Shown here in pieces: positions 6,334 through 12,900 of a DNA stretch of 64,000 nucleotides. The translations under genes and the position numbers were made by a program. Source of the DNA: Natronobiforma cellulositropha. Its GTDB lineage: Archaea; Halobacteriota; Halobacteria; Halobacteriales; Natrialbaceae. The notes under the pieces are model-generated. The model did not search any database and had not been told where the DNA came from. It was given only the letters and a program-made list of their open reading frames with translations. Positions within the stretch are counted from its first letter, which is position 1. Each line of letters begins with the position of its first letter. Location: assembly GCF_025629245.1 (NCBI RefSeq), contig NZ_JANZXN010000003.1, positions 62,001 through 126,000 of the forward strand. Direction: 5' to 3'.

Positions 6334-9099
6334 TCACCGGCCGCGAGGGCTGCGCGAGCCGACCTGACCGGAGCGAACGAGAAACGAGAGGGCGAACAGC
6401 GCCAGCAACGCCGCGCCGGCGGTGAAGCCGGGCGAGCCGTCGTCGCCGGCGGCCGGGTCCGCGTCGTCGGCGTCGTCACTCGAGCCGGGAGCGTCGTCCG
6501 CACCGGTGTCGGCTCCGTCGGGCATCGGTGCGTCAGTGACCGTCACCGTGGCCGTCGCAGTGTCCGTCTCGCCGGCGTCGTTGCGAACCGTGAGGTCGAC
6601 GGTGTACTCGCCGGGCGTCTCGAGCGTCGTCGTCACGGTTTCGCCCGCGAGCGAGCGGCGGTCGCCGTCGGGTCCGACGACCGACCACTCGTAGGCGACG
6701 AGATCGCCGAAGGGGTCGGCCGATGCGGACCCGGTGAGCGTGAGGTCCTCGCCCGGGCCGAGTACGTCGACGTCGGCCGTGAGCACCGCGTCGGGGTGGC
6801 CGACGGCGGAGACCGCGAGCGACGACGCCGCGGGCATCTCGACGAGGAGTGCGACCCGCTCGCCGCCGTCGAGGCGCTCGCGTTCGAGCGCCTGCCAGCC
6901 GTCGTCGGCGTGACGGAAGACGCCCAGATCGGCCGCGTCGGCGCCGACCTCGTCGAGGCGCGCTGGCTCGAGCGCGAGACGAACCGTCGCCGAACTGTTG
7001 GATACGTCGTCGGGAACCTCGAGTCGGGTGACGGTCAGGAGCGCGCCGGGAACGGATGCGAGACCGTCGGGGACCGCGTCGTAGGCGGTGACGGTGAGCG
7101 AGCCGTCGACCGCCCCCTCGAGACGAACCTCCTCGACCGGCGTGTCGGTGACCGTCGCGACGGTCTCGCCGGTGTCCGCGTCGGTCTCGAACGGGACACC
7201 GGCGCTCGCCGACGGTGTCGTCGCCTCACCGGCGTCACCGGCCGCGTCCGTTCCCCCGTTCTCGTCGGCCGGCTCCGCCGCGGCGCGCTCGCCGGCGGTC
7301 AGGGTAGTCGGCCCGTCGAACCCGGCCGACCCCGAGGCGACGTCGACATCGCCGTCGAGCGCGAACGTCTCGCCGTCGGCCGCGTCCGCGGGAAGCTCCA
7401 CCTCGTAGCTGAGCGTCGCACTCGTGGTCTCCGCCCAGACGGCGAACACCAGTCCGTCGGACCCGTGTCCGGAGACCAGCGCGCCGTCGGCGTCGAGCGA
7501 GGTCACCGTGAGGACCGGGTCGACCGACTCGTAGAGTGCCGGAGACGCGGGTTCGTCCGTCTCGACCTCGAGCGTGACGGTCGTCGACTCGCCGGGCGGA
7601 ACCGTCGTGTGCTCGAGCGAGCGGGTCGCCGCGGTGATCGATCCCGGATCATCGTGGCCGTCGTCGCCGGTGGCGTCGGCGAAGAGCCGGTCTACGCCCT
7701 CGACGGCGACGGTGTCGCCGTCCGTCGACGCCTCGCCGTCGATGGTGAGCGTGTCGCCGGGGTCCCAGTCGGACGGGAGCGTCACCTCGTAGGTGAGTGT
7801 CGCGTGGTCGGCGTCCGCCCAGGTGGCTTCGACGCCGTCTTCGTCGGCGGTGGCTGTCTCGGCTGAGGGAGTCGTCTCGAGGAGGTCGGCGGTGACGGCC
7901 GCATCGAACGTCTCCGTGACGGTCAGATCGCCCGTCCGGTCCGTCTCGGCGACGACGGTGACCGTCGTCGAGGTCCCTGGCTCGAGCGTCGCCGACTCGA
8001 AACTCCGCTCGGTGCTCGTGACGGTCGGCGGTGTGTCTCCGCCACCGCCGCTACTGCCACCGTCACCACCGCCGCTACTGCCACCGTCGTCGCTTCCGCC
8101 ACTCTCGTCGGCGGTCTCGACGGTGATCTCGCTCGTGCCGACGGGTGCGCTGTCGGCGGTGCCGTCGACGACGCCGGTGAGGGTGATGCGCTCGCCGTCG
8201 GTGGCGTCGTCCGGGACCGTCACCTCGTACTCGAGGAGCGCGCTCGTGGTGTTCTCCCAGACGGCCACCAGTCCCGAGCCGTCGGCGTTCACGCCCGAGA
8301 CGGTGGGTGTCGGCTCGCTGTCGGTGTGTTCGATCGCCGCGAACGCTGGATCGAACGTCTCGTAGAGGGCGACGTCGTCCACCCCGTCGACGTCGACCTC
8401 GAGCGTGACGGTCGTCGACGCACCCGGTTCGAGCGTCGTCGACTCGAGCGTCCGCTCGACGGTGGCGATGTCCGGGGCGACGGTGATCGCCGATGCGCCT
8501 GTGACGGGAACCGACTGCCCGGCAACGTCGACGGTCCCCTCGAAGGAGAGGCGGTCGCCGCCGGTCGCCGACTCGGGGGCGGTCACCTCGTAGACGAGCG
8601 TGATCGTGTCGGTGTCCGACCAGACGGCGAACACTAGACCGTCCGCGTCGACACCCGAGGCGGCAGCGCCGCCGTCGTCGACGATGGTCACGGCTCCGGC
8701 GTCGACCGATTCGTACACCGCAGGCGCACTCGAGTTGTCGACCGCGAGTTCGAGCGTGACGGTCGTCGACTCGCCAGGGGCGAGCGTCGAGCGGTCGAGT
8801 TCGCGGCTCGCGGTAGCCGTCGTCTCGTTCGTCTCGGGGTCAGTGGCCGTCTCGTTCGTCTCGGGGTCAGTGGTCGTCTCGTTCGCGTCGGCCGCCTCGG
8901 GGTGGACGAGAGCGGGCGAGTGAGACGGGGAGGCGTCGAGGCGGTGCTCGCCAGCAGTGTCGACGGGGAGGCCGGCAGCGACGCCGGTGAGTGCGAGCGC
9001 CGCGAGCACGAACACGACGAGCGAGGGGACGACGAGCGAGCGTGTGGAACGGAACCGCCGGGCCGAGGAGGGATCGGTCACGGGTTGGAGTGGCGTCAC
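6334..9099 (-). CDS. Large PGF-CTERM-type surface protein with four repeats and a PKD domain
   Basis: About 921 residues from GTG 9099, 8 bp after the stop of the upstream secreted-protein gene, so probably co-transcribed. Reading further upstream gives Arg-rich non-protein-like sequence. Domains in order: membrane/signal segment (SLVVPSLVVFVLAALALTG); Thr/Glu-rich linker with iterated DPETNETAT; four repeats of about 120 residues, each starting like TLEPGASTTVTLEV; a Gly/Ser linker; a region like that often preceding PGF-CTERM (GVFRHADDGWQALE, PAASSLAVSAVG); a PKD domain (AYEWSVVGPDG, GEYTVDLTVRNDAGE); an Asp-rich linker; and a terminal PGF plus hydrophobic helix plus Arg tail. This predicts processing and lipid anchoring by archaeosortase A. 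Confidence 0.88.
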   Translation of the reverse strand: MTPLQPVTDPSSARRFRSTRSLVVPSLVVFVLAALALTGVAAGLPVDTAGEHRLDASPSHSPALVHPEAADANETTTDPETNETATDPETNETTATASRELDRSTLAPGESTTVTLELAVDNSSAPAVYESVDAGAVTIVDDGGAAASGVDADGLVFAVWSDTDTITLVYEVTAPESATGGDRLSFEGTVDVAGQSVPVTGASAITVAPDIATVERTLESTTLEPGASTTVTLEVDVDGVDDVALYETFDPAFAAIEHTDSEPTPTVSGVNADGSGLVAVWENTTSALLEYEVTVPDDATDGERITLTGVVDGTADSAPVGTSEITVETADESGGSDDGGSSGGGDGGSSGGGGDTPPTVTSTERSFESATLEPGTSTTVTVVAETDRTGDLTVTETFDAAVTADLLETTPSAETATADEDGVEATWADADHATLTYEVTLPSDWDPGDTLTIDGEASTDGDTVAVEGVDRLFADATGDDGHDDPGSITAATRSLEHTTVPPGESTTVTLEVETDEPASPALYESVDPVLTVTSLDADGALVSGHGSDGLVFAVWAETTSATLSYEVELPADAADGETFALDGDVDVASGSAGFDGPTTLTAGERAAAEPADENGGTDAAGDAGEATTPSASAGVPFETDADTGETVATVTDTPVEEVRLEGAVDGSLTVTAYDAVPDGLASVPGALLTVTRLEVPDDVSNSSATVRLALEPARLDEVGADAADLGVFRHADDGWQALERERLDGGERVALLVEMPAASSLAVSAVGHPDAVLTADVDVLGPGEDLTLTGSASADPFGDLVAYEWSVVGPDGDRRSLAGETVTTTLETPGEYTVDLTVRNDAGETDTATATVTVTDAPMPDGADTGADDAPGSSDDADDADPAAGDDGSPGFTAGAALLALFALSFLVRSGQVGSRSPRGR

Positions 9100-9107
9100 G
9101 GTACTGA

Positions 9108-9740
9108 TCAGGCGACCTGTTCGCCGCGCTCCCAGGCGGCGACGACGTTCTGGAGGTGAGCCGTGGAGATGACGTCGTCGCGCCAGTCGTCGACCGCCGT
9201 CTGGAGTCCGTCGACGTCGATAGTGCCGTCGGAACCGGCGTACGTCGCGACCGGAACCTCGACGCTGAGCGCGAGCGTGACCAGGTCGTCCTCCGGGTCG
9301 ATGCGGACGTACTCGTCGAGACCGCGACACTCCGAGTCGGCGACACTCTCGCGTTCGAGTTCGGTTCCGGTGACCGCCTCGAGCGAGCCGTACGCCGAGT
9401 AGAAGACGAACGGGCCGTCCCACCAGTGTGTGCTGGCGTCGAAGGTCACGTAGCCCGTCTCACCCTCGTAGGTCGCCTCCCAGATCACGTGCGTACCCCC
9501 GACCGTCGGGGCACTCGTCGCCGATCCTCCGGCGTCGAGCGGTTCGCGTTCGTCGTAGAGCGCGTGTAAGCACGCGTGGCTGTGATCGACCTGGCGTTCC
9601 GCGAGCAGTTCGAGCGACTGGCGAACGGCCGTGTCATCGGCGCTCGCCGTCCCCACCGAGCCGAGGGCCGTCACGCCGGCCGCGGCGACAGTGGTCCCGC
9701 GAGCGGCGCTCGAGAGGAGGTGCCGTCGTGTACATTTCAT
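9108..9740 (-). CDS. Secreted His/Cys-motif protein, paralog 1, with dockerin-like tail
   Basis: 210 residues. A Tat-like signal (CTRRHLLSS) precedes a family core at about 41-160: SLELLAERQVDHSHACLHA, THVIWEATYEGETGYVTFDA, GPFVFYSAYGS, LDEYVRIDP. Two further genes just upstream encode the same core. Only this copy has a C-terminal extension (about 173-206) with VDGLQTAVDDWR and STAHLQNVVAAW, a paired-helix pattern like haloarchaeal dockerin-type modules. I do not recognise the core family. The clustered His residues plus Cys could bind a metal, which is inference. Followed after 8 bp by the PGF-CTERM gene. Confidence 0.85.
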   Translation of the reverse strand: MKCTRRHLLSSAARGTTVAAAGVTALGSVGTASADDTAVRQSLELLAERQVDHSHACLHALYDEREPLDAGGSATSAPTVGGTHVIWEATYEGETGYVTFDASTHWWDGPFVFYSAYGSLEAVTGTELERESVADSECRGLDEYVRIDPEDDLVTLALSVEVPVATYAGSDGTIDVDGLQTAVDDWRDDVISTAHLQNVVAAWERGEQVA

Positions 9741-9768
9741 CGGTATTCTAATAACTCAGATACACTAC

Positions 9769-9786
9769 TTGTTTAAGAATGTTATG
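9769..9786 (-). promoter_or_regulatory. Shared 18-nt promoter element, copy 1
   Basis: Plus-strand TTGTTTAAGAATGTTATG, nearly identical to 10488-10505 and 11088-11105. On the coding strand it reads CATAACA, three variable bases, then a TATA-like CTTAAACAA, about 30 nt before the ATG at 9740. It probably combines a TATA box with an upstream activator or BRE sequence common to the three paralogs. Confidence 0.7.
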
Positions 9787-9904
9787 TCTTTAGTTATTTT
9801 TAATATCCCTGCAGAATCAGGATTGATCCGGATGCGTGGGAACGACTCGGGGAAAGCCGGCGAGTGAGCGGCCAGCGGACGCGGTAGCAGCGATACCGGA
9901 TGGG

Positions 9905-10468
9905 TCAGGTGTCGGCGCGCACCTCGACCGTGATCCGGCCGTCCGTCGGTTCGACCTCGACGTACGCGTCGAGTTCGTCGCAGTCGGCGTCGTCGACCGA
10001 CCCGCGCTCGAGTTCGGTGCCCTCGACGGGGTGGGCCGACCCGAACGCCGTGTAGAAGACGAACGGACCCTCGTGCTCGTGGGCGGCGGCGTCGAAGGTG
10101 ACGTAGCCCGCCTCGCCTACGTAGGTCGCCTCCCAGATCTCGTGGGTCTCCTCGACCGTCGGGACCGCATCGGTCGAGCCACCGGTTTCGAGCGCCACGC
10201 GCTCGTCGAATCTGGCGTGGAGACACGCGTGGTGGTGGTCGACCGACGACTCGACGAGCAACTCGAGTGACCTCGGTTCGCTCTCCTCACCTGCGTCCGT
10301 GTCGTCCCCGTCTGCGGCGGCGTCACCGTCGTCAGCCGATTCAGCGTCGTCGGCGTCGGTGGCCGGGTCTGCCTCGTCTGCGGTACAACCAGCGAGGGCG
10401 GCGAGTGCGAGCGCACTACCGGCGGTTCTGAGAACGTGTCGTCGCGTGGAGGTCGTGTCGGGAACCAT
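9905..10468 (-). CDS. Secreted His/Cys-motif lipoprotein, paralog 2
   Basis: 187 residues. Signal with STRRHVLRT and a lipobox ALAGC, so lipid-anchored. A roughly 35-residue Asp/Glu/Ala linker follows, then the family core: SLELLVESSVDHHHACLHA, THEIWEATYVGEAGYVTFDA, GPFVFYTAFGS, LDAYVEVEP. It lacks the dockerin-like tail of paralog 1. It has its own copy of the 18-nt promoter element about 25 nt upstream, giving a likely leaderless transcript. Confidence 0.85.
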   Translation of the reverse strand: MVPDTTSTRRHVLRTAGSALALAALAGCTADEADPATDADDAESADDGDAAADGDDTDAGEESEPRSLELLVESSVDHHHACLHARFDERVALETGGSTDAVPTVEETHEIWEATYVGEAGYVTFDAAAHEHEGPFVFYTAFGSAHPVEGTELERGSVDDADCDELDAYVEVEPTDGRITVEVRADT

Positions 10469-10487
10469 ACCATCGAAAAGTTCAGTT

Positions 10488-10505
10488 TTGTTTAAAGTTG
10501 TTATG
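10488..10505 (-). promoter_or_regulatory. Shared 18-nt promoter element, copy 2
   Basis: Plus-strand TTGTTTAAAGTTGTTATG; 15 or more of 18 positions are shared with the two other copies. The TATA-like part sits about 25 nt before the ATG at 10468. Confidence 0.7.
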
Positions 10506-10587
10506 ATACTCTCTCGAGTTAATAATAAATAGTAGTGAGGTGCCGTCGACGGCGCGCGACGGCCGGCCAGGAGGGTGAGCGCAGGCG

Positions 10588-11058
10588 TTAGAGCGCGCTC
10601 AACTCGAGCGTGATCGATCCGTTGTCGGGATCGACTTCGAGGTACTCGTCGAGTTCCGCACAGTCGCCGACCGAGCCGCCATCCAGGTACGTGCCTTCAC
10701 AGACGGTCGCCGACCCGTTGGCGACGTAGAAGACGAACGGCCCGGAGTAGGGGTGGGAGTCGGCGTCGAAGGTGACGTATCCCTCGCTGCCGCCGTAGGA
10801 GACGTCCCAGATGACGTGGGTCTGGTCGACGGTCTGGCCCGACCCACAGGAGCCGCCCGCCATCAGTCCGGTCCGGTCGTCGTTTTCGGCGTGAAAGCAC
10901 GCGTGGTGGTGGTCGACGTATTCTTCTGCCAGTAGCTCGAGCGAGTTCGATGCTGCGGCGACGGAGCCGCCGGTAGCGCCGATCACAGCGCCAGCGGACG
11001 AGCCGAGCAACAGCGCACTCGCACCGGTCTCGAGGACGTTTCGTCGGGTGTATGTCAT
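10588..11058 (-). CDS. Secreted His/Cys-motif protein, paralog 3
   Basis: 156 residues from ATG 11058 (MTYTRRNVLETGAS); a start nine codons upstream is unlikely because it precedes the expected transcript start. A Tat-like signal with a long hydrophobic Ala/Gly core and no clear lipobox is followed by the family core: SLELLAEEYVDHHHACFHA, THVIWDVSYGGSEGYVTFDA, GPFVFYVANGS, LDEYLEVDP. Three extra Cys residues (GGSCGSG, ATVCEG, VGDC) distinguish it from its paralogs. Function unknown. Confidence 0.85.
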   Translation of the reverse strand: MTYTRRNVLETGASALLLGSSAGAVIGATGGSVAAASNSLELLAEEYVDHHHACFHAENDDRTGLMAGGSCGSGQTVDQTHVIWDVSYGGSEGYVTFDADSHPYSGPFVFYVANGSATVCEGTYLDGGSVGDCAELDEYLEVDPDNGSITLELSAL

Positions 11059-11087: not shown

Positions 11088-11105
11088 TTGTTTAAGGTTG
11101 TTATG
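11088..11105 (-). promoter_or_regulatory. Shared 18-nt promoter element, copy 3
   Basis: Plus-strand TTGTTTAAGGTTGTTATG. It differs from copy 2 at one position and from copy 1 at two. The TATA-like portion is 30-40 nt before the ATG at 11058. Confidence 0.7.
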
Positions 11106-11328
11106 GTAGAGGAAGAGTTTAATAATCTGTACAGGGCCGACGGTCGCTCCGTCGACAGAAACCCGCCGGCGACGTGAGCGGTATCCGTCGGGACGTGAAC
11201 GTCACGTGCCGGGTGTCGAAACGGAGACGAACGTCGCCAGCGTCGGAAGCGAGTCGTCCCTCGAGAGCAGTGGGGCGATTTCGAGGCGGGGAACGCCCTG
11301 CCGGAGCGCGAACCGCGACTCGAGACCC

Positions 11329-12900
11329 TCAGTCGTCGAAGCCGGGGTGGAAGGCGTGGTAGAACTCCTCGTAGCTGAGGAAGTCGTCCATCCGCCGGTG
11401 GACGGAGTCGGTGTACGCCTCGATGCGCTCGATCACCGCGGGGTCGGGGTCGTGCTCGAGGGTCTCGTAGAACTCGGAGTCGACACCGAGACCCTTGAGG
11501 ACGAGGAAGTAGAGGTAGTACTCGTTGAGGTCGGCGCGGTTGCGCGTGAGAATCGCGCGGGTGAGCGGCGCACAGAAGCCCGACTCGCGGTAGGAGTCGA
11601 CCTGTGGGATGGGGTTCGGGTTGACCGAGCGGGCGTCCTCCCAGAAGGCGGTGGTCCCCGAGTTGTAGGTGTAGTAGAGGCTGACGAAGTTGTAGACCTC
11701 CTCCCAGGTCGTGAGCGTCGTCTCGTTGAACAGGTCGCGGAGACCGGCGTGGTTGATCCGGCCGTGCATCCCCAGCAGGGTCGCGAGCCGGTCGGCGAGG
11801 TGTGCCGTGGTGGTCAGCGCCGTCGACTGGAGCGGTTCGACGAAGCCGACGGCGTTGCCGATGGCGACGCAGTTGCCCGCCCAGGGCGTCTCGAGGACGC
11901 CCGAGTCGAAGCGGTACCAGCGAACCTCGTCGGGGTCGATCGGTTCCGGGCGCGTCTCGACGAACTCGGCGAGGGCGTCCTCGTCGGAGATGTGCGACGA
12001 GGAGTAGACGTAGCCGAGGTCCCGGAGGTCGAGCGTATCGATCTGCCAGAACCAGCCAGCCTCGCCGGTCGTGACGACGGTCGCCGAGGTGACCTCCGAG
12101 AGCGGGAGGTCGGTGGTCGCGACGACCGCCGAGTCGACTGGGAGGTCGAACTCGCGGAAGGGGACCTCGAGTTCGGACACGAGGAGGCGTCTGAAGCCGG
12201 AGGCGTCGACGTAGAGGTCGGCCTCGTAAAGCTCCTCGCCCGCGATGGAGTCGATCCGGCCGTCGCTCACGTTCACGTCGGTGATGCGGTCGTCGATCAG
12301 GTCGATACCGCGCTCGCCACAGACGGTGCGGAGGAACTGGTTGAGGCTGTTCGAGTCGAAGTGGTAGGCCGCGTCCGGGAGTCCCTTCTTGATGTTGAAG
12401 ACGTCGTTCTCGTCGATCACCATCGGGGTCTTCCCGGGCGTCTCGGCGAGTTCGTTGTAGAGTGTGGTGTACTCGTCGGTCTCGTACCGGTAGTAGAACT
12501 CGTCGAAGACCGCCTCGTTCTCGGGTGTGAGCGTCTCCGTGCTGATCGTCGCCTCGACCGGGGCGGTGATGTCCGTCTGGCTCACCGCTGGCAGGGGCTT
12601 TCCGAGCGGGCTGTGGAACTCCTTGCCACACCAGTCTTTGAGGTAGACGGTCGACTTGAACGCGAGTTTGACCTCGTTGACCAGCCGACTCGGCGGAATC
12701 TCGAGCCGTTCGTGGAGGAACGTCAGCAGGTACCGAAGCGTACTCTTCCCGACCGCCGGAACGTCCTCGCTGAAGTCGTCGACGACGAAAATCTCGGCGT
12801 CGTCGAGACCGCGCTCGAGTGCCAGCGCCGCGAACAGTCCGGCGTCCCCACCACCGACGACGCCGATCGAGTCGATCCGGTGTTGACTATCTGCGTGCAC
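11329..12900 (-). CDS. Flavin-dependent halogenase (tryptophan halogenase family)
   Basis: 523 residues from GTG 12900, which lies about 29 nt after the TATA-like GTTTATC, a leaderless arrangement. FAD-binding GGGDAG is at 16-21. AFKSTVYLKDW (80-90) aligns with the segment holding the catalytic Lys of PrnA-type halogenases. GWFWQID (282-288) is the WxWxI signature with Asp in place of the final Pro. GNAVGFVEPLQST (348-360) is the second FAD motif. These enzymes use FADH2 from a separate reductase to make HOCl or HOBr; substrate unknown. Divergent from a Gfo/Idh/MocA dehydrogenase. Confidence 0.88.
   Translation of the reverse strand: MHADSQHRIDSIGVVGGGDAGLFAALALERGLDDAEIFVVDDFSEDVPAVGKSTLRYLLTFLHERLEIPPSRLVNEVKLAFKSTVYLKDWCGKEFHSPLGKPLPAVSQTDITAPVEATISTETLTPENEAVFDEFYYRYETDEYTTLYNELAETPGKTPMVIDENDVFNIKKGLPDAAYHFDSNSLNQFLRTVCGERGIDLIDDRITDVNVSDGRIDSIAGEELYEADLYVDASGFRRLLVSELEVPFREFDLPVDSAVVATTDLPLSEVTSATVVTTGEAGWFWQIDTLDLRDLGYVYSSSHISDEDALAEFVETRPEPIDPDEVRWYRFDSGVLETPWAGNCVAIGNAVGFVEPLQSTALTTTAHLADRLATLLGMHGRINHAGLRDLFNETTLTTWEEVYNFVSLYYTYNSGTTAFWEDARSVNPNPIPQVDSYRESGFCAPLTRAILTRNRADLNEYYLYFLVLKGLGVDSEFYETLEHDPDPAVIERIEAYTDSVHRRMDDFLSYEEFYHAFHPGFDD

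Follow-up and report, generated by a model that had tools for sequence, protein, structure and literature searches.

Three adjacent genes in a 64,000-nucleotide stretch of the Natronobiforma cellulositropha genome (hereafter the window) encode related secreted proteins that match no curated family, which raises the question of what these proteins do. A sequence-only reading had described them as tandem paralogs. Indeed, the three minus-strand open reading frames (P1, P2 and P3) exist, P2 and P3 are 50–53% identical to P1 over their full length, the core domains of the three proteins share 56–57% identity, and all of them carry the motifs DHxHACxHA, THxIWxxxY, GYVTFDA and GPFVFY (Table 1). This similarity is far beyond chance since profile matches reach an E-value of 6.5e-55 in haloarchaeal genomes. 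Each protein starts with a twin-arginine (TRR, Tat-type) signal, in line with the proposed Tat export of all three, and P2 bears the lipobox LAALAGC, which neither P1 nor P3 shows, as expected if one paralog is a lipoprotein. The extra cysteines attributed to one paralog are found in P3 and form a second pair that is not seen in relatives.

Table 1. Positions of the genes, core domains and promoter motifs of the window, and of related features in other loci (L numbers denote loci, each with its own numbering).
Feature	Position	Strand	Contig coordinates	Description
P1	9108..9740	-		Tat-type exported protein, 210 aa; core His/Cys domain and C-terminal tail
P1 core domain	9258..9626	-		HxxxH, TH, Cys pair
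P1 promoter motif	9780..9805	-	G000:C23:71780-71805	TATTA-N15-ATAACA, exact, then TTAAACAA
P2	9905..10468	-		Tat lipoprotein, 187 aa; Asp/Glu-rich linker, then core domain
P2 core domain	9911..10279	-		modelled, pLDDT 96.3, pTM 0.90
P2 promoter motif	10499..10524	-	G000:C23:72499-72524	TATTA-N15-ATAACA, exact
P3	10588..11058	-		Tat-type exported protein, 156 aa from ATG at 11058; core domain and two extra Cys
P3 core domain	10591..10953	-		modelled, pLDDT 96.2, pTM 0.90
P3 promoter motif	11099..11124	-	G000:C23:73099-73124	TATTA-N15-ATAACA, exact
Tryptophan-halogenase-like flavoprotein gene	about 11329-12890	-		upstream of P3; PF04820, E 6e-68
Large surface protein	6334 to about 9090	-		directly downstream of P1; PKD domain, repeated segments
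HWHG domain protein	L063 7158-9456
HWHG domain protein	L064 7770-9230
HWHG domain protein	L054 9336-10793
HWHG domain protein	L042 13060-15417

None of the three proteins scored above the cut-off of any Pfam or NCBIfam model, a PHROG search returned no match, and a search of the PDB by sequence gave nothing credible. Foldseek comparison of the predicted P2 and P3 cores with 350,542 PDB chains likewise yielded no match at E ≤ 0.001. These profile and fold searches confirm the earlier impression that the proteins contain no named domain, and we found no description of the family in the literature searched, which included few subscription journals. Several sub-threshold candidates were rejected. 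The match to the tyrosinase chaperone MelC1 (NCBIfam, E 0.0063) is limited to the signal peptide and linker; those to Profilin, Kelch and lanthipeptide synthetase models (E > 0.03, under cut-off) were read as chance; and the match to designed ‘Cake’ proteins (PDB profile, E 0.0028) extends over 37 residues, no part of which is significant separately, and these proteins are also absent among the best fold-search matches. An analogy with actinobacterial anchored-repeat relays (TIGR03769) was set aside as no scanned protein matched this model, and TIGR03772 was matched solely through ZnuA lobes.

In a phylogenetic tree, P1–P3 are placed within a group that lacks internal resolution and whose single-domain members represent several genera. 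P1 ends with a tail of approximately 45 residues, which the sequence-only reading had regarded as dockerin-like and as gained by this paralog. The tail exists, and its likeness to dockerins is a resemblance only, as P1 matches neither dockerin nor any other Pfam family at E ≤ 1. In another genus, a full-length relative with 46% identity over 213 aa carries the same tail, which is thus not private to P1; judging from this relative, a recent local duplication is an improbable origin for at least P1. The tail also occurs in a β-propeller protein (49% identity over 41 aa; L038). PQQ-type β-propeller proteins adjoin family genes at L038 (13501-15132), L046 (6061-8061) and L048 (6651-8588), two of them with PKD and PGF-CTERM. 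A candidate fourth family copy in the same genome (L004, E 3.8e-4) proved to be a different Cys-rich protein with only the signal region in common, and a scan of the genome contigs together with a plasmid tblastn search detected no relatives.

The core domain spans about 120 residues and is present once in each of P1, P2 and P3. AlphaFold2, run with 33 alignment rows on the cores of P2 and P3 (121–123 residues), predicts a mostly β fold with about nine strands and one helix for both. In the P2 core model, the helix comprises residues 15–24 and bears H17, C19 and H21, with H17 and H21 one turn apart on this sole long helix. Together with H46, these two histidines (P2 core numbering; HxxxH and TH motifs) are invariant across the alignment of 33 core domains and fit the role of metal ligands, forming a candidate site. 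In a wider set, domain 1 of L042 is devoid of H17 and H21, and L047 has none of the three histidines and keeps both cysteines. Conversely, L038, L039 and L040 each contain a second domain that is without both cysteines and retains all of the histidines; these three domains form one supported clade in the tree and therefore point to a single event of cysteine loss. Because cysteines and histidines are lost independently of each other, we interpret the C19/C100 pair as a putative disulfide that would be an element separate from the metal site.

The conserved His and Cys residues had been suggested to reflect a metal site or a redox role. The first option agrees with our data, since the conserved histidines fit a metal site. 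The second does not, as three domains without both cysteines keep their histidines and L047 presents the reverse case. That the family comprises secreted thiol-redox proteins is accordingly very improbable, even though the cysteine pair is conserved and a rhodanese domain is fused at the C-terminus after the family domain in L046 (8179-9243, confirmed by Pfam) and, by eye, in L047 (8782-9900, the copy without the three histidines) and L048 (8621-9646). The proteins have no CxxC motif, their two cysteines lie about 80 residues apart, and these residues are lost together in the clade that keeps the histidines. P3 has acquired a second pair.

A profile search of 392 haloarchaeal genomes detected the domain in 26, which belong to 18 of 86 genera; the family is patchy among haloarchaea and therefore dispensable. 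Matches in a 295-genome sample of the phylum, searched as a loose first look that may miss divergent copies, were confined to genomes of the same order. Besides single-domain exported proteins and lipoproteins resembling P1–P3, the architectures include multi-domain chains of 550–970 residues, and distant members feature long His/Asp-rich insertions of the type (HDHDDDH)n.

The genomic context connects the family to the ABC transporter ZnuABC; neither this link nor the ZnuA fusions and the promoter motif described below figure in the sequence-only reading. With a profile built from the C-terminal lobe of ZnuA, we located ZnuA in 20 of 31 family loci: a separate znuA gene lies 1 bp to 2.1 kb away (within 2.2 kb) in 16 of them, and the family domain resides inside the ZnuA protein itself in the other four (L052, L103, L104 and L105), in each of which Pfam confirmed PF01297 with two matched stretches. 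We estimate the chance of finding znuA this near a random gene at roughly 1–2%, assuming three znuA genes per genome. Pfam analysis of representative operons identified the neighbouring genes as ZnuA (PF01297, E 1e-39 to 1e-44), an ABC ATPase and an ABC-3 permease. P1–P3 themselves do not match PF01297 and have no ZnuA lobes.

Insertion of the domain in ZnuA, observed in four genomes, suggests close cooperation with the transporter. We consider it quite unlikely, given this arrangement, that the family buffers or stores zinc at the cell surface instead of directing it to ZnuA. Such a storage function would nevertheless suit the very long His/Asp repeats and the multi-domain members (L038–L042), which could hold much zinc, and a knockout of the bacterial zinc protein AztD suggested that this protein helps zinc to accumulate in the periplasm (PMC6689063).

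In the genome that harbours the window, P1–P3 do not adjoin znuABC, and the connection therefore rests on a promoter motif. An element of the form [AT]TATTA-N13-NNATAACA, followed by TTAAACAA or a similar stretch, is found upstream of P1, P2 and P3, about 30–45 bp before the start codon; each gene thus has a motif of its own, with fixed spacing. Across the 3.76 Mb of this genome, TATTA-N15-ATAAYA occurs exactly at four sites, namely before P1, P2, P3 and znuA (L063 8029). The pattern WTATTA-N13-NNATAAYA has 34 exact sites in 589 kb of homologous loci, a count that is partly circular since the motif was first noticed in these same loci; 24 of these sites lie at most 130 bp upstream of the start of a family gene or znuA (about 0.24 expected), and most of the other 10 likewise precede family or znuA genes, whose starts had been misplaced, or znuC, according to the site listing. 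A stricter pattern recovered 15 sites in 11 other genomes, versus none for a reversed control; this count and that from the genome of the window are less affected by circularity. Ten of the 15 are at family genes and one is at a znuA that does not adjoin a family gene; two are at the gene of a P-loop protein or at what remains of this gene, the intact form ending with CNCRCHDGHVLAH, and two are unexplained or probably due to chance. Family and znuA genes share the exact motif both here and in other genera, and may be controlled together.

One motif-bearing gene, at L122 (737-1468), encodes a 243-residue P-loop protein that ends with FECNCRCHDGHVLAH and has no Pfam match, and a broken copy is present in L123; it may belong to the same regulon and act as a metal chaperone in the cytoplasm. 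An operon linking P1–P3 with the neighbouring tryptophan-halogenase-like gene was dismissed, as each family gene has its own motif and no such link is needed. In Haloferax volcanii, the putative zinc operon znuA1C1B1 is controlled by the sRNA s479 and its transcription starts four bases before znuA1 (PMC8155600). Reading the TTTTA part of our motif as a TATA box is compatible with such a nearly leaderless start. The literature that we searched on haloarchaeal zinc uptake contains only znuABC-like transporters and this sRNA, with neither accessory proteins nor an operator.

Based on the computed family relationships, export signals, invariant histidines, ZnuA neighbourhood and fusions, and shared motif, we propose that P1–P3 likely assist the high-affinity uptake of zinc via ZnuABC as extracytoplasmic accessory proteins, which capture zinc and transfer it. 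Two points weigh against this proposal, namely the patchy occurrence of the family and the location of P1–P3 away from znuABC. Metal scarcity, presumably zinc starvation, would induce the three genes through the same promoter element as znuA, and Tat would export the products. Each protein would fold as a compact, mostly β domain closed by a disulfide and could hold a zinc ion through the HxxxH motif of its helix and the histidine of the TH motif. The lipoprotein P2 would stay bound to the membrane, and P1 and P3 are probably released or retained by the S-layer. Zinc collected outside the cell would then be handed to ZnuA, a task comparable to that of the bacterial proteins ZinT and AztD.

We infer the identity of the metal from the transporter. 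In ZnuA-like proteins, a histidine at the third position marks the zinc type and a glutamate the manganese type. The motif-bearing ZnuA of the window's genome (L063) aligns best with the zinc-binding AdcA and keeps all three zinc-type histidines (GHGWEP, DPHVW and GHDSYQY). Zinc-binding proteins also typically have long His-rich stretches, and the ZnuA of L064, which neighbours a NikR-like regulator, is without the exact motif. These observations make it unlikely that what the proteins capture and pass on to a ZnuA-type transporter is Mn, Fe, Ni or Cu instead of zinc. In favour of one of these other metals, transporters of the cluster A-I family carry Zn, Mn or Fe (PMC6689063), the Halobacterium zurM/zurA/ycdH genes are described in a review as encoding SirR-regulated Mn/Fe transporters (PMC3600143), and Ni or Cu can be bound by HDH-rich stretches as well. 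The L064 protein (7261-9230) is the third ZnuA-like protein of the genome; since the NikR-like regulator and, by eye, urease accessory-like genes are found next to it, it may carry nickel.

Among known zinc helpers, the closest functional precedent for the proposed zinc-uptake role is ZinT, an extracytoplasmic protein that binds zinc and helps ZnuABC; it is separate in some bacteria, is joined to a ZnuA-like protein in AdcA and is regulated with znuABC (PMC6689063). The window family parallels ZinT in that its domain occurs both by itself and in fusion with ZnuA-like proteins; unlike ZinT, it was found here only in haloarchaea. The fusions differ in arrangement, as the family domain is inserted within ZnuA near the His-rich loop and ZinT is a separate domain of AdcA. 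There is no sequence or detected fold match to ZinT (YodA): the Pfam ZinT model did not match P1–P3 at E ≤ 1 or the 33 cores at E ≤ 0.5. The best explanation is that the window family comprises functional analogues of ZinT rather than members of the ZinT family.

AztD, an exported β-propeller with two zinc sites (PMC6689063), hands zinc to the solute-binding protein AztC. The window family resembles it in being exported and encoded with an A-I zinc transporter, but its cores of about 120 residues with one main helix and no PDB match differ from a β-propeller. ZrgA (PA4063) is an exported zinc protein with His-rich loops that is made under zinc shortage (PMC9820375, PMC8561739). P2 scores 13.7 bits against the ZrgA model PF10986 (E 0.065), below the cut-off of 27.4, over residues 10–87, which are mostly signal and linker, and PA4063 adopts a ferredoxin-like fold unlike that of the window family.

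Haloarchaeal ZnuA proteins (PF01297) that share the transporter and the promoter motif with the window family contain, as an insertion, a second undescribed domain, which is of the HGDHWHG type and matches nothing in Pfam. This HWHG domain is different from the family domain, although it is found in large family members; it can also form a His-rich lipoprotein by itself, encoded before znuA, and such a lipoprotein stands in front of the znuA operon of the window's own genome (L063).

If our proposal is correct, the family adds another independently evolved zinc helper of ZnuABC to ZinT, AztD and the Pht proteins, and a function would be assigned to proteins so far outside all curated families. 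More tentatively, haloarchaea may possess a zinc-deprivation regulon with its own cis element, in which the undescribed family could relay zinc across the S-layer to ZnuABC in released, lipid-anchored and ZnuA-inbuilt forms and as PGF-CTERM-anchored multi-domain chains. Our analysis provides a candidate family with the boundary of its domain, as well as three candidate ligands and a promoter motif, which make archaeal zinc acquisition directly testable in genetically tractable haloarchaea.

The surface protein encoded downstream of P1 carries a sub-threshold PGF-CTERM signal. Elsewhere in the genome, outside the window, repeated proteins with the metalloprotease-like motif LLAHELAHVRQQ are encoded at L062 (1-639) and L065 (8114-11055) and resemble, by eye, the DUF4157 proteins of contractile injection systems.
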